From assembly GCA_002070215.1 (NCBI GenBank), contig MWCV01000027.1, positions 1-32,535 of the forward strand: a stretch of DNA of 32,535 bases. Direction: 5' to 3'. Position 1 is the stretch's first letter. Every line of letters starts with the position of its first letter. This stretch comes from Chloroflexi bacterium ADurb.Bin180 (lineage in GTDB: Bacteria; Chloroflexota; Anaerolineae; UBA2200). Below are positions 143 through 21,730 of the stretch, in pieces. Below the pieces are notes generated by a model, which was not told the DNA's origin, made no database searches, and saw only the letters and a program-made list of their open reading frames with translations. A program made the translations under genes and the position numbers.

Positions 143-162
143 GAAGGCAGTTCCATAGCAGT

Positions 163-266
163 GCGTCTCCGACCCAACGTCCCTCTGGACGAGAATGCCC
201 GTGGGCGTTGGGCGACAGGGTATGGTGGGAAACCGCCATGCCTCCCGTGTCTGGAAAGGAGATTGC
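163..266 (+). promoter_or_regulatory. Moco/Tuco-type riboswitch aptamer upstream of mop
   Basis: The RNA closes with TCTCC (166-170) pairing GGAGA (258-262). Inside are a 7-bp helix (173-179 with 206-212) and a 7-bp hairpin with a GAAA loop (222-239). The hairpin is followed directly by GCCTCCC (240-246) and TCTGGAAAGG (250-259). As I remember it, the E. coli moaA leader has the same arrangement: a hairpin, then GCCTCCCGTATCTGGAAAGG. That RNA is the molybdenum-cofactor riboswitch (Rfam RF01055). A molybdenum enzyme lies directly downstream, and a second copy sits at 13,262-13,381. Whether it senses the molybdenum or the tungsten cofactor cannot be decided by eye. Confidence 0.82.
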
Positions 267-279
267 CCCTGGCCTTGCG

Positions 280-3312: not shown

Positions 3313-5649
3313 ATGGAACAGCACAAGCTGCGCGAACTCGAGGCAATGTGCATCCAGGAGGCCCCGCCGGCCTGTACTGCGGCCTGCCCGCTGCACGTGG
3401 ATGTGCGCGGCATGATTCTGGAGCTGCGCCGGGGGGATCTGGACGCAGCGCTCAGAATCGTGCGCAAAGCGCTGCCCTTCCCGGGCATCATCGGGCGAAC
3501 CTGTGCCGCTCCCTGTACCTCTGCCTGCCGACGTAACGAGGCGGGGGAGGCGCTCGCCATCCGGGCACTGGAGCGCGCCTGCGCCGACCTCGGTCGTCAC
3601 AGTCCACCGGCGCTGCTGCCATCACGAGGGCAGCGCGTGGCAGTGGTGGGCGGGGGACCGGCCGGGTTGGTGGCGGCCTACGACCTGAGGCGCAAAGGCT
3701 ATACAGTGGTGCTGCTGGAGGCGGAGGCTCATCTGGGGGGGCGCTGGCGAGACCTGCCCGAGCGGGAGCTGCCGCGAAGCGTGCTCGAAGGTGAGCTATC
3801 CGAGCTGGAGGGCCTGGGGGTCGAGGTGCGGCTGCGCTCGGCCGTGGCTGGTGGCGGGCTGGACGAACTGCGCGCCGAGTACGATGCGGTGATTCTGGCC
3901 ATGGGTGGTTTGTCGAACGAGACGTTCGGGTTGGAAAGGACCCCCGACGGCCGCATTCGGGTGGATTCCGTTACCTGTGCTACCAGCCGTGAGGGAGTCT
4001 TTGCCGCCGGTAGCCTGGTGCTGGGCCAGGGCGAGGGCTCGGCCATCCAGTCGATGTGCGACGGACGGCGTGCGGCAACTACGGTGGATCGCTTTCTGCA
4101 GGGCGCGTCGCTTACCGCCTCACGTCAGGGAGAGGGCCCTTATCCCAGCCAGCTCTATGTGCGCACCGAGGGTTATGCGCCGCTGCCGGTGGTTGCGGCT
4201 GCCGATGCGCAGGCCGGCTACACGGCAGAAGAGGCCAGGCGCGAGGCAGAGCGCTGCTTTCCCTGCGCCTGTCTGGAGTGCGTCAAGGTGTGCGAATACC
4301 TGGCGCAGTACGAGAGCTATCCCCGCAAGTACGTACGTGAGATCTACAACAACTTGTCCATCGTCGCCGGCACTCGCCATTCGAACCAGTTCATCAACTC
4401 GTGCAGTCTGTGCGGGCTGTGTGGCGAGGTGTGCCCCAACCACCTGGATATGGCCACCGTGTGCCGCGAGGCGCGGGAGACCATGGTGGCGCAGGGGCGA
4501 ATGCCGCCATCGGCGCACGATTTCGCTCTGCGCGACATGGCGTGGAGCAACAGCAGCCAGTTCTCCCTGGCACGCCACGCGCCGGGCACCACGAGCAGCG
4601 AGTATGTGTTCTTTCCCGGCTGTCAGCTCTGTGGCTCGGCCCCGGAGCAGGTTCGCCAGATGTACGGCCACCTGCGCGAGAGGCTGGGCAAGGTCGGTTT
4701 GATGCTGGGGTGCTGCGGCGCACCGGCGGAATGGGCCGGACGCCAAGATCTGCTGGCAGAGCAGGTGGCCCGCCTCTCTGCCGGGCACCAGTCGCTGGGG
4801 CAGCCGGAAGTGATCCTGGCCTGCTCGACCTGCTATCGTCTGTTCAAGAACCATCTGCCGGAGGCCAGGGTGCGCTCGCTGTGGGAGGTGCTGGACGAGG
4901 TAGGGCTGCCTGCTGGGGCTCGCGCGCCGCAGGACAAGGTGGCGCTGCATGACCCCTGCACCACGCGCCAGGAGCCGCAGATGCATCAGCACGTGCGCCA
5001 CATTCTGCAGCAACTGGGCTGCCGGGTAGAGGAGCTGCCGCTCAGCCGCGAAAAGACCGAATGCTGCAGCTTTGGCGGCCAGATGTGGCTGGCCAACCGC
5101 GACCTGGCCAGGGCGGTGGTGCAGCGGAGAATCGCCGCCAGCGACACGGATTACATTACCTATTGCGCCGTGTGCCGCGATTTCTTTGCCGCGCAGGGCA
5201 AACCAACGCTGCACTTGCTCGACTTGCTGTACGGCAAGGATATCGCAGAACGGGCGCACCGCCCGGCGCCGGGCTGGTCGGACCGCCACGAGAACCGTGT
5301 GCGGCTCAAGCGCGCCATGCTCAAAGAATTGTGGGGAGAGGAAATGCCAGACCAGCCGTCCTACGAGTCGATTCGTTTGCTCATTTCGCCCGAGGTGCGC
5401 CAGCGAATGGAGGAGCGATTGATCCTGGTGGAGGACGTCCAGCAGGTCATCGAGCATGCCGAGCGCAGCGGCGCGCGCTTCCAGAACCGCCAGAGCGGCC
5501 ACTATCTGGCCGGCCACAAGCCGGCTGCGGTGACCTACTGGGTCGAGTACAGCCCACTGCCCGCTTCAGGCCAGGACCAGGAGCCGCAGTTCGTGGTGCA
5601 CAATGCCTACAGTCACCGTATGACGGTGGAATCGAGCCAGCCAGGATGA
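3313..5649 (+). CDS. GltD-like Fe-S flavoprotein fused to HdrB/GlpC-type CCG domains (DVU_1558-like)
   Basis: This 778-aa probable electron-transfer protein has several parts. The N-terminal di-cluster region resembles the glutamate synthase small subunit (C13, C21, C25, C64, C68, C72). An FAD Rossmann motif, VAVVGGGPAGLVAA, spans 109-122. A cysteine-rich segment (CFPCACLECVKVC) and a ferredoxin-like CSLCGLCGEVCP follow. The C-terminal half has HdrB/GlpC-type cysteine motifs (FFPGCQLCG, LGCCGAPAEW, HDPCTTRQEP, ECCSFGGQ). The tail of about 150 residues is unrecognised. I see no second GxGxxA nucleotide-binding motif, so NAD(P)H may not be the direct partner. I recall this architecture from the DVU_1558 family beside mop in Desulfovibrio. 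It probably exchanges electrons with Mop or a cofactor maturation step. The ATG follows an AGGAG site and the stop overlaps the next gene by 4 bp. Confidence 0.85.
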   Translation: MEQHKLRELEAMCIQEAPPACTAACPLHVDVRGMILELRRGDLDAALRIVRKALPFPGIIGRTCAAPCTSACRRNEAGEALAIRALERACADLGRHSPPALLPSRGQRVAVVGGGPAGLVAAYDLRRKGYTVVLLEAEAHLGGRWRDLPERELPRSVLEGELSELEGLGVEVRLRSAVAGGGLDELRAEYDAVILAMGGLSNETFGLERTPDGRIRVDSVTCATSREGVFAAGSLVLGQGEGSAIQSMCDGRRAATTVDRFLQGASLTASRQGEGPYPSQLYVRTEGYAPLPVVAAADAQAGYTAEEARREAERCFPCACLECVKVCEYLAQYESYPRKYVREIYNNLSIVAGTRHSNQFINSCSLCGLCGEVCPNHLDMATVCREARETMVAQGRMPPSAHDFALRDMAWSNSSQFSLARHAPGTTSSEYVFFPGCQLCGSAPEQVRQMYGHLRERLGKVGLMLGCCGAPAEWAGRQDLLAEQVARLSAGHQSLGQPEVILACSTCYRLFKNHLPEARVRSLWEVLDEVGLPAGARAPQDKVALHDPCTTRQEPQMHQHVRHILQQLGCRVEELPLSREKTECCSFGGQMWLANRDLARAVVQRRIAASDTDYITYCAVCRDFFAAQGKPTLHLLDLLYGKDIAERAHRPAPGWSDRHENRVRLKRAMLKELWGEEMPDQPSYESIRLLISPEVRQRMEERLILVEDVQQVIEHAERSGARFQNRQSGHYLAGHKPAAVTYWVEYSPLPASGQDQEPQFVVHNAYSHRMTVESSQPG

Positions 5650-5858
5650 GTGAGAACCAGAAAGCAACTGCAACGCCAGAGTGGGTCTGCGTCCGCTGTG
5701 GAGTGCCGCTGGAGCCGGGCAAGGTCAACGTGGGCTATCTCGACAGCGCCTTTCCGGTGGACTTGCCGCGCTGTCCCCGGTGCGGGCAGGTGTTGATCGC
5801 GGAAGAGCTGGCGCTGGGCAAGATGGCCGACGTCGAGAAGCAGTTGGAAGACAAGTAG
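5646..5858 (+). CDS. Small two-CxxC zinc-ribbon/redox protein (DVU_1557-like)
   Basis: This 70-aa protein has paired CVRC (C15, C18) and CPRC (C43, C46) motifs, typical of a zinc ribbon or a rubredoxin-like metal site. Its ATG overlaps the stop of the upstream flavoprotein gene (ATGA), which implies translational coupling. It matches the DVU_1557 family redox proteins in size, motif spacing and position. Its role is unknown; a small metal or electron carrier for the neighbouring flavoprotein or Mop is the simplest guess. The C-terminal ~25 residues are helical and charged. Confidence 0.8.
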   Translation: MSENQKATATPEWVCVRCGVPLEPGKVNVGYLDSAFPVDLPRCPRCGQVLIAEELALGKMADVEKQLEDK

Positions 5859-5860
5859 CA

Positions 5861-6595
5861 GTGGGCGTGGCCGGCTGGGAAGGGCTGCAGCGGCTCACCG
5901 GCGTGATGCGGCCGGGCGGGCTGGAGCTCACCGAACGGGCTCTGCGCGCCAGCCGACTGAGCGCCGGCTCGCGGGTGCTGGACGTGGGCTGCGGCGCCGG
6001 CGCCAGCCTGGCCCTGCTGGCGCAGTGGAACCTGGTCGGCGTGGGGGTGGACGTGATGCCGCTGGTGGGGCAGCCTGGCGCAGCAGGCGGCGCACCACGG
6101 TTAGTTCAGGCCGGGGGCCAGCGCTTGCCGCTGCGCGAGCGGTCGTTCGATGCGGTGCTGGCCGAGTGCAGTCTGTCGCTGATGCCGGTGCGAGGGGCAC
6201 TGGCCGAGTTCGCCCGGGTGCTGCGGCCGGGAGGCCGGCTGCTCCTGAGCGACCTCTACCTGCGGCGACCCGAGCAAGCCCCAGCCCTGCGAGCCCTGGC
6301 GCTCGACGGCTGCCTGGCCGGTGCGAGGGGCAGGGACGAGTGGCTCTCTCTGCTTGGCGACGCGGGGTTTGCCGTGCTCGAGTGGGAGGATCACTCCGCC
6401 GCGCTGCGCCAAACGGTTGGACAGTGGATGATGGCCGGCGGTGCACCCGAGCAGCTCTGGTGCGGCGGGGCAAGTTGCTGCTCGCTCGATGCGGTGGAGC
6501 AAGTGCGGGCGGCGGTCGCGGCGGCACGGCCCGGGTACTATCTGCTGGTCGCTGCGTATCGGGGTGCGTCAGCCGTTCACGGGGAGGACCAATGA
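5861..6595 (+). CDS. SAM-dependent methyltransferase (DVU_1556-like)
   Basis: This 244-aa class I methyltransferase has motif I VLDVGCGAGASLALL, a central segment ending SFDAVLAECSLSLM, and the post-motif RVLRPGGRLLLSDLYLR. The start is taken as GTG 5861, two bases after the upstream stop; GTG 5867 is also possible. ATG 5906 would remove the N-terminal WEGLQRLTG segment, which I think is conserved in the DVU_1556 family. The C-terminus has an unusual CGGASCC cluster. The methyl acceptor is unknown. Position in the operon suggests work on a cofactor or partner of the Mop system rather than general metabolism. The stop overlaps the next gene by 4 bp. Confidence 0.82.
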   Translation: MGVAGWEGLQRLTGVMRPGGLELTERALRASRLSAGSRVLDVGCGAGASLALLAQWNLVGVGVDVMPLVGQPGAAGGAPRLVQAGGQRLPLRERSFDAVLAECSLSLMPVRGALAEFARVLRPGGRLLLSDLYLRRPEQAPALRALALDGCLAGARGRDEWLSLLGDAGFAVLEWEDHSAALRQTVGQWMMAGGAPEQLWCGGASCCSLDAVEQVRAAVAAARPGYYLLVAAYRGASAVHGEDQ

Positions 6596-7035
6596 GCAAC
6601 GATGCGGCGCGTATCGCCGAGTTGAGCCTGCAGGGATTCTGTTGCAGCCAGGTGCTGGCCCTGATGGGCCTGGAACTCATGGGCACCAGCAGCCCCGAGC
6701 TGGTGCGGGCAATGATGGGTCTGTGCGGCGGCATCGGCTCGTCCGGCGCCACCTGCGGGGCGCTCACCGGGGGAGTCTGTGTATTGCATCTGTTTGCCGG
6801 CAAGGGTGCGCCGGAGGAAAAGGTCGACTTTCAACTCGGCCTGATGACCAGTGAGCTGATCGAGTGGTTCACCGCCGAGTACACCGCCAGTTACGGCGGC
6901 ATCCTGTGTCGTGAGATCCTGGCCGGTAACCCGATGCATCAGCGAACGCGCTGTCCGCAGTTGGTAGTAGCCACCTGGGAGAAGGTCAAAGAGATCCTGC
7001 TGGCCAACGGCTATCCCAGGGCGAGGGGGAGATGA
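6592..7035 (+). CDS. C-GCAxxG-C-C family protein (DVU_1555-like)
   Basis: This 147-aa protein has the family signature: an N-terminal FCCSQ, then LCGGIGSSGATCGALTGG, and a C-terminal RCPQLV cysteine. Other family members are thought to bind a metal or act in redox reactions, with the cysteines as ligands. A GGAGG site lies about 6 nt before the ATG at 6592, and the gene overlaps both neighbours by 4 bp (ATGA at each end). The family is common beside radical SAM and oxidoreductase genes in anaerobes. No specific reaction can be assigned. Confidence 0.88.
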   Translation: MSNDAARIAELSLQGFCCSQVLALMGLELMGTSSPELVRAMMGLCGGIGSSGATCGALTGGVCVLHLFAGKGAPEEKVDFQLGLMTSELIEWFTAEYTASYGGILCREILAGNPMHQRTRCPQLVVATWEKVKEILLANGYPRARGR

Positions 7036-8414
7036 ACGGCGAAGAAACGCGGCTCGGTGAGACCGAGAGCGTTTGCCCGGAGTGCCTGCAACGGATTCCG
7101 GCGCGCCGGGTCGGCCGCGGAGGCGACGTGTTCCTGGTGCAGGAGTGCCCGGTCCACGGCCGCTTCGAGGCGGTGCTCTGGCGCGGCGAGCCGGATTATG
7201 CCTCCTGGATCAGACCCAAGACGCCCAGCTCGCCCAGGCAGCCGTTCACCGCAGTTGACCGCGGCTGCCCGCTGGATTGCGGGCTGTGCCCCGAGCACCG
7301 GCAGCATACCTGCACGGCGCTGCTGGAGGTGACGGGACGCTGCGACCTGGGCTGTGCCTACTGCTTTGCCAGCTCCGGCGGCGACGCGCCACCGGATCCT
7401 TCGCTGGAGGTGATCGCTGGCTGGTACGCCGCTCTGCTGCAAGCGGGCGGCCCGTACAACGTGCAGCTTTCCGGCGGCGAACCGTGCCAGCGCAACGACC
7501 TGGCCGGGATCGTGCGGCTGGGCAAGTCGATGGGATTTGGTTTCATCCAGCTCAACACCAATGGCCTGCGACTGGCCAGCGACCCTGACCTGGGGCGTGA
7601 GCTCAAAGACGCCGGTCTGTCATCGGTGTTTCTGCAGTTCGATGGCACCGAGGACGAGATCTACCGCGCGCTCCGTGGCCGGCCGCTGTGGGACATCAAG
7701 CGGGCCGCAGTGGAGCGCTGTGCCGAGCTGGAGCTCGGCGTGGTGTTGGTGCCCACACTGGTGCCGGGCGTGAACGTACACAACATTGGCCAGATCATTC
7801 GTTTCGCCCTGGCCCACCAGCCGGCAGTGCGGGGAGTGCATTTCCAGCCGGTGAGCTATTTCGGGCGATTTCCCCGCGGAGTGGACGACAGCCGCCGGGT
7901 GACCCTGCCCGAGGTAATGCGGGAGATCGAACGGCAGATGGATGGCCAGATGGCGGTGCGGGATTTCCGGCCGTCGGGGTGCGAGAACTCGCACTGCTCG
8001 TTCCACGCCGACTACCTTCCCCTACCGGATGGCCGGCTGTACTGCCTGCCGGCCAGGCCCGCGGCTGGCTGTGGCTGCTCACCGGAGCGGGCCGAGGAAG
8101 GAGCGGCGCGCACCCGCGCTGTGACCGCCAGACGTTGGTCCTTCCCCGCCGCTACGGCTGTCGAGTGCGGGGCGGAACCCGCGCCGGGGCCCGGGCTGGG
8201 CGAGTGGGAGGTGATTCTCCGTCAGGTCAAGACGCACACTCTGACCATATCGGCGATGGCCTTCCAGGACGCCTGGACGCTGGATCTCGAGCGCCTCAAG
8301 GATTGCTGCATCCACACGGTGCATCCGGATGGGCGCCTGATCCCGTTCTGTGCCTACAACCTTACCAGTGCCAGCGGCCAGCCGCTGTACCGCCGCGTGG
8401 AGCGGCACCAGTGA
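7032..8414 (+). CDS. trsS: Radical SAM protein, TrsS-like
   Basis: This 460-aa radical SAM enzyme has the [4Fe-4S]-SAM motif CDLGCAYC (C104, C108, C111). It is preceded by CPLDCGLCPEHRQHTC (C79, C83, C86, C94), a signature shared with the Tes/MJ0619 group that couples lipid chains. The N-terminus has a CPEC pair (C15, C18) with a later ECPVHG, which suggests a zinc site. LSGGEP follows the radical SAM motif as expected. The C-terminus holds another cysteine group (DCCIHTVHPDG, PFCAYN). I recall the cluster member being named TrsS, sometimes a selenoprotein; here every visible position is cysteine and there is no in-frame TGA. Its substrate is unknown. It overlaps both neighbours by 4 bp. Confidence 0.88.
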   Translation: MNGEETRLGETESVCPECLQRIPARRVGRGGDVFLVQECPVHGRFEAVLWRGEPDYASWIRPKTPSSPRQPFTAVDRGCPLDCGLCPEHRQHTCTALLEVTGRCDLGCAYCFASSGGDAPPDPSLEVIAGWYAALLQAGGPYNVQLSGGEPCQRNDLAGIVRLGKSMGFGFIQLNTNGLRLASDPDLGRELKDAGLSSVFLQFDGTEDEIYRALRGRPLWDIKRAAVERCAELELGVVLVPTLVPGVNVHNIGQIIRFALAHQPAVRGVHFQPVSYFGRFPRGVDDSRRVTLPEVMREIERQMDGQMAVRDFRPSGCENSHCSFHADYLPLPDGRLYCLPARPAAGCGCSPERAEEGAARTRAVTARRWSFPAATAVECGAEPAPGPGLGEWEVILRQVKTHTLTISAMAFQDAWTLDLERLKDCCIHTVHPDGRLIPFCAYNLTSASGQPLYRRVERHQ

Positions 8415-9787
8415 GAATCACCCCTCTGGACGCCTGGATCGCCGGCAAGGTCGGTCACCAAGGCGAGCTGCTGACCCGGTCGGCGATCCAGGCCTGGCAA
8501 CTGAACAGGCTGCGGGAGACACTGGCGCTGGTGCGCGAGAAGAGCGCTTTTTATCGCGAGCACCTGTCGGCGGCTCCGACCGAGCTGGGCCGTCTCGACG
8601 ACCTGGCGCAGTGCGGCTTTACCACACCAGAGGACATTGCCCGGGAAGGGCAGCGGATGCTGTGCGTATCACAGGGGGAGATCGAGCGGGTGGTGACGCT
8701 GGACAGCTCGGGCACCACCGGCGCGGCCAAGCGCCTCTATTTCACCCGGGAGGATCAGGAGCTGACCATCGACTTTTTCCGGGTGGGAATGTCGACCCTG
8801 GTGGAGCCGGGCGACAGGGTGCTGATCCTGCTGCCCTGCGAGCGGCCGGGCAGTGTGGGCGACCTGCTGGCCAAAGGCCTGGAGCGCCAGCGTGCCTGCC
8901 CGCTCAAGCACGGGCCGGTGCGTGACCTGGCCGAGACGCTCCAGTTGCTGGCGCAGGAGAAGGTGGATGCGCTGGTGGGCGTGCCGGTGCAGGTGCTGGC
9001 GCTGGCGCGTCAGCGGAACGACCAGGCGCGGCGCGCCCTGCGCCTCCAGAGCGCACTGCTCTCGACGGACTATCTGCCGCCTGCCATCGCCGTGGCGCTG
9101 GAAGAGGCCTGGGGCTGCCGCGTGTTCGATCACTATGGCATGACCGAGATGGGTCTGGGCGGCGGGGTGCAGTGCGAGGCCAGGCGCGGCTATCACCTGC
9201 GCGAAGCAGACCTGTACGTGGAGGTCGTCGACCCGGCCACGGGCCGCGAGGTGCCAGAGGGGGAATACGGTGAGGTGGTCTTTACCACGCTCACCAGGCG
9301 CGGGATGCCCCTGATCCGCTACCGCACCGGCGACCTGAGCCGCTTCATTCCCGAACGGTGTGCCTGCGGCACGGCGCTCAGGAGCCTCGAGCCGGTCCGT
9401 CAGCGCCTGTCCGGTCGCGCCGCGCTGGGCGCGAGCCTGACCCTGTCCCAGGCCGACCTGGACGATGCGCTGTTTCCGTTCGCGGAGGTTCTGGATGTGC
9501 GGGCAGAGCTCTCGCACCAGGGCGACCGCGACCACCTGTCGGTGCTGGTGCGAACGGTACCCGGCGCCGGCAATGCTCTGCGGCCGCGGCTCAAAGCGGC
9601 ATTGTGGTCGGTGCCCGCACTGGCCGAGGCGCAGAGCAGGGGAGTGCTGGACCTGGCCTTGCAGGTCGATGCGTCGGGATACGCTCCGCCGCTCAGTGCG
9701 GCCAAGCGGGCGATCAAAGACACGAGAGGCCCAACTGGAATGAGCAAAAGCGAGCAGTGCCTGAGCCGGGCAGGTTCTTGCCGCTGA
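8411..9787 (+). CDS. PaaK-like AMP-forming acyl-CoA ligase (DVU_1553-like)
   Basis: This 458-aa ANL-superfamily enzyme activates a carboxylate with ATP, normally to give an acyl-CoA. Visible motifs are the phosphate loop LDSSGTTGAAKR, the DHYGMTEMG segment and RYRTGDLSRF, with a candidate catalytic lysine near the C-terminus in SAAKRAIKD. A CACG pair lies before the C-terminal domain. Size and motifs resemble phenylacetate-CoA ligase. The start is GTG 8411, overlapping the upstream stop as GTGA; an upstream extension in this frame would cover the radical SAM gene. One idea is that it activates the acid made by Mop; another is that it adenylates a maturation intermediate. Confidence 0.85.
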   Translation: MRITPLDAWIAGKVGHQGELLTRSAIQAWQLNRLRETLALVREKSAFYREHLSAAPTELGRLDDLAQCGFTTPEDIAREGQRMLCVSQGEIERVVTLDSSGTTGAAKRLYFTREDQELTIDFFRVGMSTLVEPGDRVLILLPCERPGSVGDLLAKGLERQRACPLKHGPVRDLAETLQLLAQEKVDALVGVPVQVLALARQRNDQARRALRLQSALLSTDYLPPAIAVALEEAWGCRVFDHYGMTEMGLGGGVQCEARRGYHLREADLYVEVVDPATGREVPEGEYGEVVFTTLTRRGMPLIRYRTGDLSRFIPERCACGTALRSLEPVRQRLSGRAALGASLTLSQADLDDALFPFAEVLDVRAELSHQGDRDHLSVLVRTVPGAGNALRPRLKAALWSVPALAEAQSRGVLDLALQVDASGYAPPLSAAKRAIKDTRGPTGMSKSEQCLSRAGSCR

Positions 9788-9830: not shown

Positions 9831-11003
9831 ATGGATCGCCGAAGAATGTTGAGATGGATGCTGGCCGTTCTGCTGCTGGGAGTGTTGGCTCAGGCCTGCC
9901 GGCCCGAGCCGACGCCGACGCCGGTGCCCACGCCCACGCCGCGGCCCACCGCCACGCCGACGCCGCTGCCGCCGCCAACGCCGACGCCCGTGCCTACCCC
10001 GGAGAGCATCAAGATCACCGACTCGCTGGGCAACACGGTCGAGTTCAAGACGCTCCCGCAGCACATTGTCATCGCCGGCAAGAACCCGCTGCCCGTGGTC
10101 GAGAACCTGTTCCTCTATCCGGAAGCGAACGAGCGACTGGCAGGTTATGCGATGGGCGGGAAGCAGAATCCGGCCACTTTCTTGTCGCTGATGCACCCGA
10201 CATTCAAGGACAAGCCGACCCTGCAGACCGGCGCCACGGCAGAGCAGATCACTGCCCTGCAGCCAGATGCGGTGGTGATGAAGAGCCTGAACTATGAGGC
10301 CCTCGGCAAGCCGCTGCAGGCGCTGGGTATCCCGGTGATCGCCCTCGACCTGGAGACGCCAGAGCAGTTCACCCACGACCACGTGATCCTGGGAGAGTTG
10401 TTCGGGAATCCGACGCGCAGTCAGGACATCCTGGCCTACTACGAGGCCAAGCTGGCGCCAGTGGCTCAGGCCACCGAGGGGCTCAAGCCAGAAGAAAAGC
10501 CTACCGTGCTGCTGATGCAGTACAGCCTGAGCGGCGGGGAAGTCGCCGTGAGCGTTCCTCCGGGGTCCTGGCTCCAGACGCTGATGGTCGAGCTGTCCGG
10601 CGGAAACCCGGTGTGGAAGGACACGGTCAGTGGCAGCGGCTGGGCTGTGGTCAACCTGGAGCAGATCGCGGCCTGGGATCCGGAGGTCATGCTGGTGGTG
10701 GACTATACCGCTAACCCGAAAGAGGCGGTGGCCAAGCTCAAGGCCGACGCGCGCTGGCAGGAGCTCAAGGCGGTGAAAGAAAACCGCATCTATGGCTTTG
10801 CTGGCGACTTTTTCAGCTGGGACCAGCCGGATCCGCGCTGGATTCTCGGAGTCAACTGGTTGGCGGCCAAACTGCACCCGGAGAAGTTCCCTGGATTTGA
10901 CCTGACGCAGATGGTCACCGAGTTCTTTGTGCAGATGTACGGCATGAGCGAGTCGCAGGTGCAATCTGGGGTTCTACCTAAACTGACCGGCGACGTGAAG
11001 TGA
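9831..11003 (+). CDS. Substrate-binding lipoprotein of a FecCD-type ABC importer
   Basis: This 390-aa protein has a signal peptide ending in LAQAC (C23 lipidated), a Thr-Pro linker over residues 24-59, and a periplasmic-binding fold of the BtuF/FepB type starting at KITDSLGNTVEF. Thr-Pro linkers of this kind are typical of surface lipoproteins in Anaerolineae. AAGGAG lies 8 nt before the ATG. A 43-bp gap separates it from the ligase gene, the largest after the one behind mop. The ligand is unknown. The mop operon and the leader riboswitch make molybdate or tungstate (as in MolBCA) a reasonable inference. Iron-siderophore or cobalamin are alternatives. Confidence 0.88.
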   Translation: MDRRRMLRWMLAVLLLGVLAQACRPEPTPTPVPTPTPRPTATPTPLPPPTPTPVPTPESIKITDSLGNTVEFKTLPQHIVIAGKNPLPVVENLFLYPEANERLAGYAMGGKQNPATFLSLMHPTFKDKPTLQTGATAEQITALQPDAVVMKSLNYEALGKPLQALGIPVIALDLETPEQFTHDHVILGELFGNPTRSQDILAYYEAKLAPVAQATEGLKPEEKPTVLLMQYSLSGGEVAVSVPPGSWLQTLMVELSGGNPVWKDTVSGSGWAVVNLEQIAAWDPEVMLVVDYTANPKEAVAKLKADARWQELKAVKENRIYGFAGDFFSWDQPDPRWILGVNWLAAKLHPEKFPGFDLTQMVTEFFVQMYGMSESQVQSGVLPKLTGDVK

Positions 11004-12058
11004 GCCGGTCCCATCAAGTGGGGATGGCGCAGGGTCGTTCCGCGGCCCGCGGGGGCGCTGCCGGGGGTGTCTCGAGCCGCAAGAGCCGGGATCTGCTTCT
11101 GCTGCTGATTCTGCTCGTGGTGATGGGGGCGTCGCTGCTGATCGGGCGGTACCCGGCGCCGTACTGGATGACGCCGGCCCGCCTGGCCCGGGATCCACTG
11201 GCGCAGCGATTGGTGCTGACGCTGCGACTGCCGCGGCTGATCAGCGCCTGCCTGCTGGGCATGGTCTTGTCGGCCTGCGGCACGGTGCTGCAGATGATCT
11301 TTCGCAATCCCCTGGTCGAGCCGGGCTTTCTGGGGGTATCGCAGGGCGCTGCCTTTGGTGCAGCCCTGGCGATCATCTTCCTGGGAAGGGGAGCCCTCAT
11401 CGTGGAGGGCTCCGCGGCTCTTTTTGCCTGCCTGGGGCTGATCATCACTTACAGTCTGGCCAAACGCACTCGGTTCGGCGGCTGGATCCTGCGCCTGGTG
11501 ATGTCGGGCATCGTGGTGTCGGCACTCTTCTCGGCCGGCGTGGGTGTGCTCAAGTACATGGCCGACCCGCTGACCCAGTTGCAGGACATTGTGTTCTGGA
11601 TGATGGGCGGGCTGTGGAGCGTGCAGTGGGAGGACGTAGGATACCTGCTGCCGGTGGCCGTGATCGGGCTGACCATCGTCTACCTGATGCGCTGGCGGCT
11701 GAACCTGCTGTCGCTGGATGACGACACCAGCTTTTCGCTGGGAGCTGCTCCGGGCAGGGAACGGGCACTGATCCTGGCCGCAGCGGTGGGGGCCACCGCG
11801 GCCGCCGTGTCTGTTGCCGGCATCGTGGGCTGGGTGGGACTGCTGATTCCGCACATAGCGCGGCGGATCAGCGGAGCCGACGCGCAGGCCTCGGTGCCCA
11901 CTTCGATCCTGTTGGGGGGCGTGTTCGCCGTGCTGTGCGACGACCTGGCGCGCACGCTGATGACCGGCGAGATCCCGCTGGGCATCCTCACTTCGCTGCT
12001 GGGCGGGCTGCTCTTTTTGTGGCTGATGGTGGCTGGCGAGCTGAGGGTGCAACGATGA
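11000..12058 (+). CDS. FecCD/BtuC-family ABC importer permease
   Basis: This 352-aa multi-pass membrane protein of the type II importer family is about the usual length, with a basic N-terminus of ~30 residues before the first membrane segment. Family features include RLPRLISACLLGM, the NPLVEPGFLGVSQGAAFG segment, and GWVGLLIPHIARR, the cytoplasmic loop that contacts the ATPase. The start is taken as GTG 11000, overlapping the binding-protein stop as GTGA; ATG 11024 is a weaker alternative. The stop overlaps the ATPase gene by 4 bp. It forms the membrane channel for the lipoprotein's ligand. Confidence 0.92.
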   Translation: MSRSHQVGMAQGRSAARGGAAGGVSSRKSRDLLLLLILLVVMGASLLIGRYPAPYWMTPARLARDPLAQRLVLTLRLPRLISACLLGMVLSACGTVLQMIFRNPLVEPGFLGVSQGAAFGAALAIIFLGRGALIVEGSAALFACLGLIITYSLAKRTRFGGWILRLVMSGIVVSALFSAGVGVLKYMADPLTQLQDIVFWMMGGLWSVQWEDVGYLLPVAVIGLTIVYLMRWRLNLLSLDDDTSFSLGAAPGRERALILAAAVGATAAAVSVAGIVGWVGLLIPHIARRISGADAQASVPTSILLGGVFAVLCDDLARTLMTGEIPLGILTSLLGGLLFLWLMVAGELRVQR

Positions 12059-12834
12059 GCCAGGCACCGGCGGTGAGCCTCTCAGAGGTAAGCTTTGGCT
12101 ACGGAGCGAGCCCCAGGCCGGCGCTCAGCCAGGTCTCGCTCGAGATACCGGCGGGGCGCATCACGGCCATCCTGGGGCCGAACGGGTCCGGCAAGACCAC
12201 GCTGCTGCGGCTGCTGCTGGGCGTTCTCCAGCCGGTCGGGGGGCAGATCCTGCTGGGCGGGCGGGCCCGGTCGGCCTACTCGCGGGCCGAACAGAGTCGT
12301 CTGGTGGGCCTGGTGCCGCAGAGCGAGCACGTGCCTTTCGACTTTACGGTGTTGGAGTACGTCCTGCTGGGGCGGGCGCCCTACCTGGGGCCGCTGGACC
12401 TGCCCGGCCCTGAGGATCGAGCCATCGCACGAGAGGCACTGGAGATGGTGGGCATCGGCCATCTGGCAGAGCGGGCGGTGCCCAACCTGAGCGGAGGCGA
12501 GCGGCAGTTGGCCACCATCGCCCGCACGCTGGCCCAGGCGCCGGCCATGCTGCTGCTGGATGAGCCAACGGCTCATCTGGACCTGGGCAACCAGAGCCGT
12601 TTGCTCCAGATCATGCGCGACCTGCGCGACGCGGGCGGGACGCTGCTGGTGACCACTCATGACCCGGACCTGGCCGCCAGCGTGGCCGACCTGACCGTGC
12701 TGATGAAGGGTGGCCAGGTGCTTTGCGCCGGTCAGACGGAGGCGGTGCTCACTGCCGAGTGGCTGACGCGAGTGTACGAGACGCCCATTTTGGTGTACCG
12801 GGTCGACGGACACTACTTGATCTGCCTGGCCTAG
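12055..12834 (+). CDS. ABC importer ATPase (FepC/BtuD type)
   Basis: This 259-aa ATPase has Walker A GPNGSGKTT, a Q-loop in GLVPQSEHVPFDF, the signature LSGGERQ, Walker B MLLLDEPT and the switch histidine in TTHDPD. Length and motifs fit siderophore, cobalamin or molybdate importers of the FecCDE type. The ATG overlaps the permease stop. It is the last gene of the operon and ends 14 bp from the stop of a convergent minus-strand gene. No clear terminator is visible in that short gap. Confidence 0.93.
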   Translation: MSQAPAVSLSEVSFGYGASPRPALSQVSLEIPAGRITAILGPNGSGKTTLLRLLLGVLQPVGGQILLGGRARSAYSRAEQSRLVGLVPQSEHVPFDFTVLEYVLLGRAPYLGPLDLPGPEDRAIAREALEMVGIGHLAERAVPNLSGGERQLATIARTLAQAPAMLLLDEPTAHLDLGNQSRLLQIMRDLRDAGGTLLVTTHDPDLAASVADLTVLMKGGQVLCAGQTEAVLTAEWLTRVYETPILVYRVDGHYLICLA

Positions 12835-12848
12835 GGGCAGGGCGCGGG

Positions 12849-13142
12849 TCAGGCCGCGAGGCGAGCCTCCCCCTCACTGGCCGCCGCCTGCAGGCGTGCT
12901 TCCAGGGCCACGGCGGCGATATCGGGCAGCATGGCCGCCTCAAAGACCGCGTAGGTGCGGTGATCTGGCGCATCGATGATCAGCGTGACCTGCTCCGGCC
13001 GCGGGCCTGGCTCGACGCGGAAACCCAGACGCTGAAAGAGGCGTACCGAGTCCTCGAAGGAGAGGCGCAGCGCAGGGCCAGGGAGGGTATCGGCCGGAGG
13101 GCCGGCGTCGGACGCGCACTTGTCTGTGGGCACGTGATCCAA
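12849..13142 (-). CDS. Unrecognised 97-aa protein under a Moco/Tuco-type riboswitch
   Basis: The gene reads from TTG 13142 to 12849. The start is fixed by AAGGAG (13155-13150) 7 nt upstream; the frame runs further upstream, but there it crosses the aptamer and a hairpin. The first ~25 residues look disordered. The rest reads as a compact alpha/beta domain (SFEDSVRLFQRLGF, then EQVTLIIDAPDHRTYAVFEA) with a helical alanine-rich tail. The one cysteine is C9. I recognise no family. The upstream RNA links it to the cellular state of molybdenum or tungsten cofactor, so a role in cofactor handling or Mop-operon function is likely but unproven. Confidence 0.75.
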   Translation of the reverse strand: MDHVPTDKCASDAGPPADTLPGPALRLSFEDSVRLFQRLGFRVEPGPRPEQVTLIIDAPDHRTYAVFEAAMLPDIAAVALEARLQAAASEGEARLAA

Positions 13143-13149
13143 GGGCGGT

Positions 13150-13155
13150 CTCCTT
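13150..13155 (-). promoter_or_regulatory. Ribosome binding site fixing the TTG start of the 97-aa gene
   Basis: The minus strand reads AAGGAG, then a 7-nt spacer, then TTG at 13142. No ATG or GTG with a comparable site is nearby in this frame. Confidence 0.7.
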
Positions 13156-13197
13156 AAGGTGAAAAGAAGACGCGCCGGCTGCCCTGGCCGGCCAGAC

Positions 13198-13244
13198 AAG
13201 CAACGCGGCGGCATCCAGAAAGTGGACGCCGCCGCGCTTTGCTT
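13198..13244 (-). terminator. Large hairpin after the second riboswitch aptamer
   Basis: On the minus strand a near-perfect stem of about 19 bp (13244-13224 with 13216-13198) encloses a 7-nt loop, between the aptamer and the ribosome binding site. It occupies the same relative place as the terminator in the mop leader and is similarly GC-rich (both contain a CGCGGCG core). The following bases are only moderately T-rich, so it may end transcription weakly or act through another mechanism. Confidence 0.5.
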
Positions 13245-13261
13245 CCCTGGCCACGAGCAGC

Positions 13262-13381
13262 GCATCTCCTTTCCAAGGATGGGAGGCGCTGCCGTTTCCA
13301 GCAGGGCCTTGCCGGTGTGGTGCCGTGGCTGCAGCTCGCGCGCTGCGAGCGTCAGCGGTAGGTCACCAGACTCGGAGATGC
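13262..13381 (-). promoter_or_regulatory. Second Moco/Tuco-type riboswitch aptamer
   Basis: The RNA closes with a perfect 8-bp helix, GCATCTCC (13381-13374) with GGAGATGC (13269-13262). It contains a 6-bp GCTCGC/GCGAGC hairpin and a CTGCTG-GAAA-CGGCAG hairpin (13304-13289), followed by CGCCTCCC and then TTGGAAAGGAG. The order of elements is the same as in the aptamer at 163-266 and, from memory, the E. coli moaA leader. The extra internal hairpin favours the Moco form, which I recall having a P3 helix absent in the tungsten form. Divergence from copy 1 in the helices with retained pairing argues for a conserved RNA structure. Confidence 0.8.
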
Positions 13382-13409
13382 TAACGAACAACGGATTCGA
13401 TTGACCATC

Positions 13410-13438
13410 AGTGTACCACAAGCGGGGCGGAAGGTCAA
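13410..13438 (-). promoter_or_regulatory. Promoter of the 97-aa gene and its riboswitch
   Basis: The minus strand has TTGACC (13438-13433), a 17-bp spacer and TACACT (13415-13410). The predicted start near 13403 lies about 20 nt before the aptamer. It is back to back with the promoter at 13447-13475. Confidence 0.75.
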
Positions 13439-14756: not shown

Positions 14757-14920
14757 AGACCCGCCCCTACGACGTGGCTGATAGGTCGGAGCCGCGGCGC
14801 ACCAGCGCAGACGCACAGACCCGCCCCTACGAGGTGGCTGATAGGTCGGAGCCGCGGCGCGCCAGCGCAGACGCAGAGACCCGCCCCTACGAGGTGGCTG
14901 ATAGGTCGGAGCCGCTGCGC
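14757..14920. repeat. 60-bp tandem repeat, about 2.7 units
   Basis: Units begin AGACCCGCCCCTACGA at 14757, 14817 and 14877, with an exact 60-bp period and only a few substitutions; the third is cut short near 14920. The unit carries ATAGGTCGGAGCCG. There are no unique spacers, so this is not a CRISPR array. Reading frames across it are by-products of a period divisible by three. No gene is seen between 14,572 and 15,113 apart from these repeats. Confidence 0.9.
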
Positions 14921-14938
14921 GCGGGCCGCCTGTTTTTC

Positions 14939-18233: not shown

Positions 18234-21200
18234 TCAGCCCTCAAAGCGCGGGTCGTAGAGCCAGCAGATGCCGGTTGCAGCGCAATAGGACGGGCAGCCC
18301 CCGTCCGGCACGGACGGAGCGAAGGCGCCGGCGCGCACGCCCCACACGGCTGCAGTGGCGGCGGTGACCGCGGCGGCTATCGCTCCCTGCGGGCCGTTGC
18401 CGAACTGCTCGGACTTGAACTTGCTCAGGGAAAAGCCGCTGCGTTTGGCATCGAGGATGTGCCAGTAAAAGCCCTCTATCGGCTGGCCGCGCTTTTCCCG
18501 GTCGATGGCGTCTCGGGCGGCCAGGGCGTAGAGCGGGAGCTGCAGCTTTTTGCCCTTTTCCACGGAGGGAGCGGTGTAGGTGCCCGCACCGCCAGACTTG
18601 TAGTCGATGATGCGCAGCCGGCGCGCCTCCTCCTGCTCGGGCAGGAGGTCGATGCGGTCGATGATGCCGTGGAGGAGCAGCGGGGGATCCCCGTCGATCA
18701 CGAGCGGCGGGCTGCCGTGACGGCCAAAGGCGGCTTCGAAGAGGACGGGCCGCCACTGCCCCTTTTCCCGGTCCAGCTCCTCCAGCGTGCGCCGAATGTT
18801 GACCTCGATCTCCTCGCGGGTCCGTTCCCACCATTGCGTCTGGCGAAAGCCCAGCTCCCGCGGCGCCGCGTCGAGCACCTCGAGCGCCACGGCGGGCAGG
18901 GCATCCTGAAGCTGAGCGAGGTCACGCGGGTTGGCGACCCTCCGGAAGAGCTTTTCCAGGATCTGATGGTAGATGGTGCCGAGCTGGGTCGGTTCGGGGC
19001 CGACGGTGGGCTCGGGCCGCGGCTCGAGGCCGAGCAGGTTGGCAATGAAGAAATGGAAGGGGCAGCAGCGGTAGACCTCGAGGCGGCTGGGGCTCCACAC
19101 GTGCGCCGGGCCAAAGGTCTGGCCCAGCTCGGACGACAGGCAGGACAGGTCGCCATCGCTGGCGGGACCGCGGCCCAAGCGCTGGCCGTGCAAGGCCGCA
19201 GCCAGGCGCAGGTGCTCCAGGCGCGGGGCGTCGGCGGCCAGGGCCCAGGCCCGTTGCGCGGCAGGCGGGTCAAGAACCGCAAGAGACTCCATCAGCTCGG
19301 GCCAGGAGGCCACCTCTTCCGGCGCCAGGCGCGCATCGCTCGTCAGCGTGAGTGGCGCGATGCGCGTGACGCGGCGGACCTCCTCCCACAGGGGCGAGGC
19401 CTCCCAGGGTGCGCCGTTCTCGGCCAGGCGCGGACGCGTGAGCAGCAGGCGGTGCGAAGGGCGCGTGACGGCCTCGTAGAACGCCTGCACCTCGGCACTG
19501 TCGATGGAGGACTCGAGGCGCAGGCCGCATGCGCGCAGGGCGGTGCGGTCCGACTCGCGCAGGAAGGGGTCCTCGTGCTGAGTCTTGGGGAACTCGCCTT
19601 CGGCCAGGCCGAGGATGGCCGCCGCTGCCAGGGGCAGGCCGCGGGCCGAACGAACGCCGGCCACGAGCAGCTCGTCCCGGCCGGGGTCCACCGGCGGCAG
19701 ATAGACCTCGCTCTCGATCACGCCGCTCAGATCCTCGAAAAAGCGGGCATAGTCCACCTGGCCCGGGCTGCCCTCGAAAGCCTCCTCCGCCCAGACCAGG
19801 CCGCGCAGGATGTCCTTGAGTGCGCGCAGGGCGGCCACGTCGAGGTGGCAGCCGGGAGGGGGGCCTTCTTTGGCGCGGGTCACCACCTGGAGCGAGGTGG
19901 GTTCCGGGAGGGCGGGGAAGGGCGACGTGCCCGGGTCCGGGTCGGCGCCGATGAGGTCCTCGAGCCAGGCCACCAGGGTGCGGTAGGAAAGCAGAGTCGC
20001 GCCGGTGGCGGCGGGAGGCCGCAGGCGGTCCACAAAGCGCTCAAAGCGTCCCCGGAGCAGCAGTGCCTGCTCGGGCGAGGGCAGGTCGGGCGGGGTGTGG
20101 TCGTTGTCGTTCTCGTCGCCAAGGGTGGCGGAGCGCGCGGCGGCACGGTCGAGCGCCTCGCGCCACTGGGCCTCTCCGCCCACCACCTGACCCCAGCGGG
20201 CGATGGCGGCCAGACGGTCCGCGTCGCCGGGGCCGATGCCAATCGGTTCTGTACTGTCCTCGGCGGGCAGGGCCGACCAGTCAAAGTAGGGCGAACGCCA
20301 GGCCTCGACGACCAGGCGGTACGGCAGAGCGTACTCGGGGGGAGAGGCGGCATCTGACAGCCGTCCCGCATCGGCAGGGCCTCCCGCCAGGGCGGTCTCT
20401 GCCTCGGCGGGAAGCATCAGGCGCAGGAGGTCGAGCAGCGCGGCGATGACCGGGCTGCTCTTGAGCGGCAGGCCCTCTACCAGGCGCACTGGCAGCTCGA
20501 ACTCGGCGGCGGTCTGCTGGATGAAGGGGCGGTACGGGGCGATGTCGCGGGCCAGCAGGGCCACCGAGTGCAGCGGCAGGTGATCCCCCAGCAGGCGGGC
20601 CTTGAGCCAGCGCACGGCGGCGCGCACTTCGGCGGCGCGGTCCGGTGCTTCGATGAGCTCGATGGCCGGTTCGGGTGCCGGCTCTGGTGCCGGCTCTGGC
20701 GCCGGCGGTGCGGGCGGCGGGAACAGGCCGGCCTCGAGGGTGCGCAGGCCCGGAGCGATGGGCGGCAAGGGATGCCGCAGGGCCTCGGCCTGGATGCCCA
20801 GGGCCGACTCGAGCTCGGCTCTGGTGCGCTCGAAGCGGCGCCACACCAGCGGGCGCGCGGGGTCTCCGACCGAGCCGGTCAGGGTGATGATCATACGGTC
20901 CACGCGGCCGGCCAGCTCCACGAGAAGGGCCAGCTCGAGCGGGGTGAAGGAGTCAAAACCGTCGATGACCAGGAGCGGCCAGTCGCGGCCGAGGTCAGGC
21001 GTGGCGCGCAGCACCTCGAGCGCCAGCCAGCCCAGTCCGATGCGGTCGGCCGAGCTCTGCGCGTGGAGCTGCTGCTGATAGCGGGAGTAGATGAGGGCCA
21101 GCTCGGCAAGGCGGGCGTCGTTGCCGAGGGCGGCCACGGCGGCGGTGAGGTCCTCCGGTGTGATCAGCGCGGCCTTGAACTCGGCGAACAGCGACTGGAG

Positions 21201-21539
21201 CGAGGAGGTAAAGCCCGGCAGGTTGACCAGCGGGGCGTAGTAGGTGAGGTGGTCGAGCTGCGAGCGGATGAGGCGGTAGAGCACCGGCTCGCTGAGCTCG
21301 GTATAGGCCTGGCCGGCGGCGTCGAGGCACTCGGCGTAGAGGCGGTCAAAGGTGAGGAGGCGAACGTTCAGGGCGCCGCCTGCCAGCGCCAGTCGGCGGC
21401 GCAGGGCGCGCACCTGGAGGTGGCTGGGAACCACCACACGCGGCGTGCTGGCCAGGCCGGCGGCGGCGCTGCGGAGCAGGTCAACCACGGCGGCGGTCTT
21501 GCCGCCGGCAGCGGGCGCCAGCCAGAGAGAAACGTGCAC
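18234..21539 (-). CDS. addB: AddB-type PD-(D/E)XK nuclease subunit
   Basis: This 1101-aa protein starts at GTG 21539, following a GGGGGG-rich ribosome site and a promoter 30 bp upstream. The longer open frame to 21671 would run through the promoter and a palindromic repeat, so it is rejected. A degenerate Walker A (PAAGGKTAAVVD) lies at the N-terminus. The C-terminus has the nuclease motif RIIDYKSG and four cysteines placed like the AddB iron-sulfur staple: one in YRCCPFHFF and three in GGCPSYCAATGIC. It pairs with AddA in end resection for recombination. Confidence 0.85.
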   Translation of the reverse strand: MHVSLWLAPAAGGKTAAVVDLLRSAAAGLASTPRVVVPSHLQVRALRRRLALAGGALNVRLLTFDRLYAECLDAAGQAYTELSEPVLYRLIRSQLDHLTYYAPLVNLPGFTSSLQSLFAEFKAALITPEDLTAAVAALGNDARLAELALIYSRYQQQLHAQSSADRIGLGWLALEVLRATPDLGRDWPLLVIDGFDSFTPLELALLVELAGRVDRMIITLTGSVGDPARPLVWRRFERTRAELESALGIQAEALRHPLPPIAPGLRTLEAGLFPPPAPPAPEPAPEPAPEPAIELIEAPDRAAEVRAAVRWLKARLLGDHLPLHSVALLARDIAPYRPFIQQTAAEFELPVRLVEGLPLKSSPVIAALLDLLRLMLPAEAETALAGGPADAGRLSDAASPPEYALPYRLVVEAWRSPYFDWSALPAEDSTEPIGIGPGDADRLAAIARWGQVVGGEAQWREALDRAAARSATLGDENDNDHTPPDLPSPEQALLLRGRFERFVDRLRPPAATGATLLSYRTLVAWLEDLIGADPDPGTSPFPALPEPTSLQVVTRAKEGPPPGCHLDVAALRALKDILRGLVWAEEAFEGSPGQVDYARFFEDLSGVIESEVYLPPVDPGRDELLVAGVRSARGLPLAAAAILGLAEGEFPKTQHEDPFLRESDRTALRACGLRLESSIDSAEVQAFYEAVTRPSHRLLLTRPRLAENGAPWEASPLWEEVRRVTRIAPLTLTSDARLAPEEVASWPELMESLAVLDPPAAQRAWALAADAPRLEHLRLAAALHGQRLGRGPASDGDLSCLSSELGQTFGPAHVWSPSRLEVYRCCPFHFFIANLLGLEPRPEPTVGPEPTQLGTIYHQILEKLFRRVANPRDLAQLQDALPAVALEVLDAAPRELGFRQTQWWERTREEIEVNIRRTLEELDREKGQWRPVLFEAAFGRHGSPPLVIDGDPPLLLHGIIDRIDLLPEQEEARRLRIIDYKSGGAGTYTAPSVEKGKKLQLPLYALAARDAIDREKRGQPIEGFYWHILDAKRSGFSLSKFKSEQFGNGPQGAIAAAVTAATAAVWGVRAGAFAPSVPDGGCPSYCAATGICWLYDPRFEG

Positions 21540-21568
21540 TGTTGCCCCCCTCAGGTGTTGATGGGGCC

Positions 21569-21597
21569 ATTGTAGCGCCGGGAGGTGGATGTGGCAA
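21569..21597 (-). promoter_or_regulatory. Promoter of the addB-addA operon
   Basis: The minus strand has TTGCCA (21597-21592), a 17-bp spacer and TACAAT (21574-21569). The start codon at 21539 lies about 23 nt after the predicted transcript start, which supports the GTG start. Confidence 0.72.
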
Positions 21598-21604
21598 GAG
21601 GAAG

Positions 21605-21730
21605 GACGGCGGGTACGAATAAGACTTCCGAAGTCTCCCAGACTTCGGAAGTCTTGATTTGGCTGGCCCATCGAGAAACGGGCGGGTCTCTCCGTCTGCG
21701 CCGTTGCGCCGGCGCCTTCGGCCCGCTCCT
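21605..21730. repeat. 126-bp direct repeat, copy A
   Basis: It begins GACGGCGGGTACGAA and ends CGGCCCGCTCCT, and it matches 21880-22005 with about four substitutions. It contains the palindrome at 21621-21655 (16-bp perfect arms, CCC spacer) and a CGAGAAACGGGCGGGTCT segment. The 149 bp between the copies hold no gene. Confidence 0.9.
21621..21655. repeat. 35-nt palindromic repeat, perfect copy
   Basis: AAGACTTCCGAAGTCT and its exact reverse complement surround CCC, followed by GATTT. It lies upstream of the addB promoter. Each arm itself contains the palindrome AGACTTCCGAAGTCT, so several alternative folds exist. Confidence 0.93.

Follow-up and report, generated by a model that had tools for sequence, protein, structure and literature searches.

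A riboswitch of known family that stands before a gene of no known family raises the question of whether that gene is real and, if so, what it does in the pathway that the riboswitch controls. Chloroflexi bacterium ADurb.Bin180 (GCA_002070215.1) poses this question with an aptamer of the molybdenum/tungsten cofactor (Moco/Tuco) family, RF01055, that precedes a frame of only 97 codons. The window, that is, the whole stretch of DNA that was analyzed, comprises 32,535 nt (MWCV01000027.1, positions 1 to 32,535). A first-pass annotation had read from its minus strand a promoter, a Moco/Tuco-like aptamer with an 8-bp closing helix, a GAAA-loop hairpin and two further motifs, a long hairpin, a ribosome site, and a TTG-started gene for a protein of no known family, and had proposed a new member of the Mo/W regulon. 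All of these elements were recovered, and the features of the locus and of its neighborhood are as follows.

155 to 277, plus strand: second RF01055 aptamer, at the head of the mop gene run (covariance model, 62.1 bits)
515 to 3241, plus strand: mop, molybdopterin-dependent aldehyde oxidoreductase (NF045668, 1653.6 bits, cut-off 1100)
3313 to 9787, plus strand: remainder of the mop/Trs gene run, with small and other genes interspersed
3313 to 5649, plus strand: NF045663 oxidoreductase in the mop/Trs run
7032 to 8414, plus strand: TrsS radical SAM protein in the mop/Trs run
about 8411 to 9787, plus strand: CoA-ligase-like gene, last of the mop/Trs run (named by reading the translation)
9831 to 12834, plus strand: MolABC-like importer, three genes
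9831 to 11003, plus strand: importer binding protein (matches MolA HI1472, 3psa; top match 4ovk)
11000 to 12058, plus strand: importer FecCD permease (best PDB match MolB HI1471, 2nq2, E 1.1e-54)
12052 to 12834, plus strand: importer ATPase
12849 to 13142, minus strand: 97-aa gene, TTG start, undescribed family (predicted alpha-beta-beta-beta-alpha core, residues 29-96)
13150 to 13155, minus strand: Shine-Dalgarno site AAGGAG, 7 nt upstream of the TTG (predicted to be covered by GUCUUCUU in the aptamer-bound fold)
13163 to 13175, minus strand: putative switching strand GCGCGUCUUCUUU, able to pair with the aptamer 3' segment or the Shine-Dalgarno site
13174 to 13192, minus strand: hairpin GCCGGC-CAGGGCA-GCCGGC with GCGTCTTCTTTTC after it, resembling a terminator (weak, of doubtful role; 1 found, 0.4 expected)
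13190 to 13252, minus strand: long G+C-rich hairpin, putative expression platform (z -6.9 and -6.3)
13260 to 13272, minus strand: aptamer 3' segment AAAGGAGAUGCGC, P1 side, partner in the anti-aptamer pairing
13250 to 13389, minus strand: RF01055 Moco/Tuco aptamer, P3-less, with GGAAAC P4 loop (50.1 bits)
13410 to 13438, minus strand: sigma-70-like promoter TTGACC-N17-TACACT with extended -10 TG (9/12 matches)

A cmscan analysis of the whole window returned two RF01055 matches, and the one before the 97-aa gene covers the full model length with an E value of 2.7e-9 and a score well above the curated gathering score of 36. Its closing helix of 8 bp is formed by GCAUCUCC/GGAGAUGC, and it contains the GGAAAC-loop hairpin together with CGCCTCCC and GGAAAGGAG; the optional P3 stem is absent. 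P3-less Moco/Tuco RNAs have been linked to tungsten users (Regulski et al. 2008, PMC2408646), which makes Tuco a possible ligand. The 1.1-kb region contains two promoter-like sites, whereas shuffled sequences average 0.1. The RNA belongs to the same aptamer family as those described by Regulski et al. and resembles them in its classes of neighboring genes (moa, Mo/W importers, and molybdoenzymes) and in a putative expression platform of the translation or termination type; unlike them, it lies directly before a lone, undescribed small gene. It has the P3-less form, yet its core motif is of the type that is seen here before moa, mop, and importer genes.

Ten RF01055 matches are present in the genome as a whole, nine of them above the gathering score. 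Their targets are moaA, the mop run of the window, two further FecCD-type importers, a PF00174 lipoprotein, four AOR-type loci, and the 97-aa gene, with the AOR and moa names assigned partly by reading translations. Behind nine of the ten copies stand genes for moa, mop, importer, AOR, or PF00174-domain functions, and the 97-aa gene is the only one behind an RF01055 copy that is not a recognizable target.

Two side observations concern these RNAs and their targets. The RF01055 loci of genomes G000 and G001 (L056, L057, L058-L062, and L065-L071) fall into two clear types: those before moa, mop, and importer genes combine a GGAAAC P4 loop with GGAAAGGAG (or GGAAAGGGG), those before AOR-type and similar genes carry GCAAAGGAG and mostly an AGCAAY loop, and the GG/GC motif separates the types in 17/17 cases. 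The motif types may mark Moco versus Tuco specificity better than the P3 stem does. PF00174 (Oxidored_molyb) domains occur in binding proteins of RF01055-led or Mo/W importers as well as in lone lipoproteins (L058:1032-3497(+), L084:45-1394(+), which is just under the cut-off, L059:7222-8388(-), and L083:11642-12631(-)), and extracytoplasmic capture of cofactor or oxyanion is a possible function for these proteins.

The frame of the small gene is open from the TTG at 13142 to the stop at 12849; however, it is also open upstream through the aptamer, and openness alone is therefore no evidence of a gene. The 97-aa protein matches nothing in Pfam, NCBIfam, or PHROGs, as the first-pass annotation had anticipated, and six other genomes of the order contain no homolog. 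In a sample of 396 genomes of the class, a search with the single sequence identified clear homologs (best E value 1e-21) in six other genomes, namely G291 (twice), G389, G348, G342, G354, and G379, and two more, in G748 and G749, came from a profile search of the order to which G348 belongs. Beyond the window's own copy, the family thus has nine copies in eight Chloroflexota (Anaerolineae) genomes, which brings the total to ten loci and nine genomes of a single class, and none of nine members has a match in Pfam. A scan with a three-sequence alignment traced two of them to the public records Chloroflexi bacterium FK_Sedi_B_Bin.16 and Anaerolineae bacterium Zod_Metabat.1210, on which the naming of the class as Anaerolineae is based. 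The conserved core reads LSFEEAVRLFxxWGFxVEPGPRxxEVTLILxTPxxRTYAVHPAAxLPxMAAxALxVRWRNG, and a comparison of the G748 and G749 copies gives a dN of 0.131, a dS of 0.904, and a dN/dS of about 0.14. The G379 copy is broken, being split over two frames. Since the homologs are conserved and under purifying selection, the 97-aa gene is real and represents an undescribed protein family. The significant covariance match and the conservation of the frame are the opposite of the two outcomes that the first-pass annotation had named as counting against its proposal.

The family is rare and patchy, with 7/396 genomes of the class carrying the gene. Most other members begin a few residues ahead of the core, and the first ~25 residues of the window protein, which have low pLDDT, are thus an extension specific to its lineage; even so, the best start is the TTG that the Shine-Dalgarno site precedes. 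Two sets of weak matches were rejected: many hits of 74 and 111 aa (E values 0.008 to 0.1 in the first search for relatives) are chance matches to reverse-strand frames of an apparent ABC permease gene, and a PheT B5 domain fell from an E value of 0.006 with one sequence to 0.37 with the family profile and has no Pfam match. Single-protein scans of named genomes, viral contigs, and plasmids gave nothing usable, and literature on the mop/Trs cluster and on Moco riboswitches in Chloroflexi yielded nothing on the gene.

A Mo/W gene or riboswitch adjoins, or shares a gene run with, every copy of the family, in neighborhoods taken from draft MAGs of genomes that are not phylogenetically independent. 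In G354, RF01055 (77.7 bits), WtpA, WtpB, WtpC, and, 51 nt later, the gene follow each other on one strand, with WtpA above its cut-off and WtpB and WtpC slightly below theirs. The run in G389, again on one strand, consists of WtpA, a WtpB-WtpC fusion, the gene 16 nt later, and MoaA. In G748 and G749 the gene ends a run that is led by RF01055 (74.4 and 69.4 bits, respectively) and consists of mop, NF045663, a methyltransferase, a C_GCAxxG_C_C-like gene, TrsS, a ligase-like gene, a second SAM methyltransferase, and the gene, where genes for which no family is cited were named from their translations. The gene end of the G749 run meets a convergent MolB-type importer, as in the window. G348 encodes a binding protein, a MolB-type permease, an ATPase, a methyltransferase, and the gene with an 8-nt overlap, G379 has the methyltransferase and broken gene pair beside an importer, and G342 has the order methyltransferase, gene, RF01055. 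Of the two copies in G291, one adjoins WtpA-WtpB and the other a ThiS/MoaD-like gene; RF01055 was not detected in this genome, which is 70% complete. The expectation that homologs would recur behind the same RNA or beside mop is borne out by the RF01055-wtpABC-gene order in one genome and the RF01055-mop run-gene order in two, and the Mo/W genes that adjoin the remaining copies agree with the proposed new regulon member.

In the window, the importer, which is a probable Mo/W importer by its sequence matches, and the 97-aa gene are convergent, with 14 bp between the stop codons of the ATPase gene and the small gene; this orientation of the gene away from the importer was counted against an importer-linked accessory role. 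MolABC (H. influenzae HI1470-1472) and WtpABC importers are genomic partners of the family, and the 97-aa protein, which matches none of their families, is a component of neither. Separately, one family of genomes encodes a third protein without assignment (about 125-146 aa, MNERKIHIYGSGRGFIITPV...) next to either the small gene or its importer (L105:9690-10067(-), L106:9180-9578(-), L088:8646-9020(+), and L086:1209-1649(-)). Elsewhere in the window, a double palindrome of 33-47 nt, GACTTCCGAAGTCTCCCAGACTTCGGAAGTC, occurs in six copies (14553, 14939, 14997, 21623, 21898, and 23852) between genes or at gene ends, and a 60-bp triplicate lies at 14757-14936. A tRNA-Pro(CGG) called by ARAGORN at 18959-19043(+) lies inside a long minus-strand gene (18234-21671) and is probably false.

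One class I SAM methyltransferase family accompanies the gene closely. The start of the gene overlaps the methyltransferase stop in G748, G749, G348, and G342 (by its ATG in the first two), and the same junction precedes the broken copy in G379. The methyltransferase family is encoded in 20/396 genomes of the class and in 5/7 of the gene carriers (Fisher p 4e-6, in a test that ignores the relatedness of the genomes and takes both 396-genome scans as the same sample). In the genome of the window it is not adjacent to the 97-aa gene and follows an RF01055-led MolB-type importer on another contig (C29); because each of the two genes stands behind RF01055, both would be under the same signal. This methyltransferase family (L057:1090-1932(-) and homologs L113-L130) also recurs beside Mo/W importers and, by reading, beside XdhC-, MocA-, and ModA-like genes.

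The leader between aptamer and gene folds far more stably than shuffled sequences (z -6.9). Its strand GCGCGUCUUCUUU (13175-13163) can pair with AAAGGAGAUGCGC (13272-13260) in 13/13 positions, 11 Watson-Crick and two G-U, which none of 5,000 shuffles reached; this match is inflated because GGAAAGGAG resembles a Shine-Dalgarno site, so that any anti-Shine-Dalgarno strand partly matches it. When the aptamer is enforced in the fold, GUCUUCUU pairs with the Shine-Dalgarno sequence AAGGAGAC, and in an RNA that ends at the switching strand, as a nascent transcript would, the lowest-energy fold contains the anti-aptamer pairing. Modeled in this way, the two pairings are mutually exclusive, and the layout is probably that of a translational OFF switch, in which cofactor binding would let the aptamer close P1 and release GCGCGUCUUCUUU to mask the Shine-Dalgarno site, and with cofactor absent, GCGCGUCUUCUUU could pair with AAAGGAGAUGCGC and free the ribosome site. 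The thermodynamic minimum of the full-length leader masks the Shine-Dalgarno site even without ligand, and the ON state would therefore need co-transcriptional kinetics. Transcription termination by way of the hairpin at 13192-13174 is possible; this hairpin lies outside the predicted minimum free energy structures. We infer both the direction of the switch and its ligand.

AlphaFold, run with three sequences, predicts the protein with a mean pLDDT of 80.5 and values >90 through most of the core, and the model confidently places a helix (29-38), three strands (41-45, 51-57, and 62-68), and a second helix (69-96) in an alpha-beta3-alpha arrangement. Foldseek found no convincing relative (best E value 0.16), and the best VIA-align match, a COMM-domain chain, reached a Z of 4.1 over 51 residues at 2.7 A rmsd, with many unrelated folds within 1 of that Z; because such matches are weak and unrelated folds score alike, no fold was assigned. 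A PDB search with the sequence gave weak matches only. The calculated pI of 4.7 and a mean hydropathy near zero suggest a soluble protein. Molbindin/Mop (TOBE) proteins are likewise small, Mo/W-linked, and probably cytosolic, but they form a TOBE barrel, unlike the predicted alpha-beta3-alpha core, and no TOBE domain was found by Pfam profile in nine members of the family.

Three other explanations were weighed against a Mo/W accessory factor. The main rival, which we regard as rather unlikely, is that the 97-aa protein is chiefly a subunit or activator of the SAM methyltransferase, which would modify some target of the mop/importer system. The stop/start overlaps, the co-occurrence in five of seven carriers, and the presence of both genes behind RF01055 in the window's genome although they lie far apart all fit such a partnership, but the gene also stands within Wtp importer runs, in G354 and G389 (69% and 90% complete), two genomes in which no methyltransferase was detected, and 15 of the 20 methyltransferase genomes are without the gene.

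It is also conceivable, if improbable, that the riboswitch acts in antisense, i.e., that a transcript from 13410 passes the gene into the antisense strand of the importer and mop genes and tunes the convergent importer. The short distance between the stop codons, the finding of no terminator between 12700 and 12849 on either strand, and the enrichment of Moco riboswitches among predicted antisense-acting riboswitches (24 vs 834 sense; PMC9943018) would suit it; against it, the gene is conserved and elsewhere lies in sense behind RF01055 or in Mo/W runs, and the expression platform is predicted to act on the gene's own ribosome site. Antisense control is compatible with an accessory factor, to which an effect on the importer would be a possible extra. 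That the riboswitch is a relic that outlived the gene it first served, and that the frame is a chance ORF in G+C-rich DNA, could explain the frame open through the aptamer, the many long chance ORFs in the window, and the lack of homologs within the order, but it is contradicted by same-frame homologs, a conserved start region, synteny, and purifying selection, and we give it hardly any credence.

We therefore favor, with a probability of roughly 0.6, a one-gene transcription unit of the Mo/W-cofactor regulon whose P3-less aptamer would sense Moco or Tuco and control translation of the 97-aa protein as an OFF switch. The product would be a small, acidic, soluble alpha-beta3-alpha protein that is produced together with Mo/W importers and the SAM methyltransferase or in response to the signal that governs them. 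We infer that its biochemical role is most likely that of a cytosolic accessory factor in molybdate/tungstate uptake or in early cofactor handling or loading. A bolder version, in which the family is a cytosolic factor that ferries molybdate/tungstate or finished cofactor from importer to enzyme, or gates this transfer, in concert with a dedicated SAM methyltransferase, is a doubtful proposition; if it were true, Mo/W handling in these bacteria would have a step unknown elsewhere.

The regulon (Moco/Tuco) is a known one, and the encoded protein family is an undescribed, new member of it. Even where protein homology is lacking, a riboswitch can point to a gene as part of a known pathway, and in this case independent copies next to wtpABC, moaA, and mop confirm what the riboswitch indicates. 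Together, the small protein and the methyltransferase make up a short list of unassigned Mo/W-homeostasis genes in a little-cultivated phylum.
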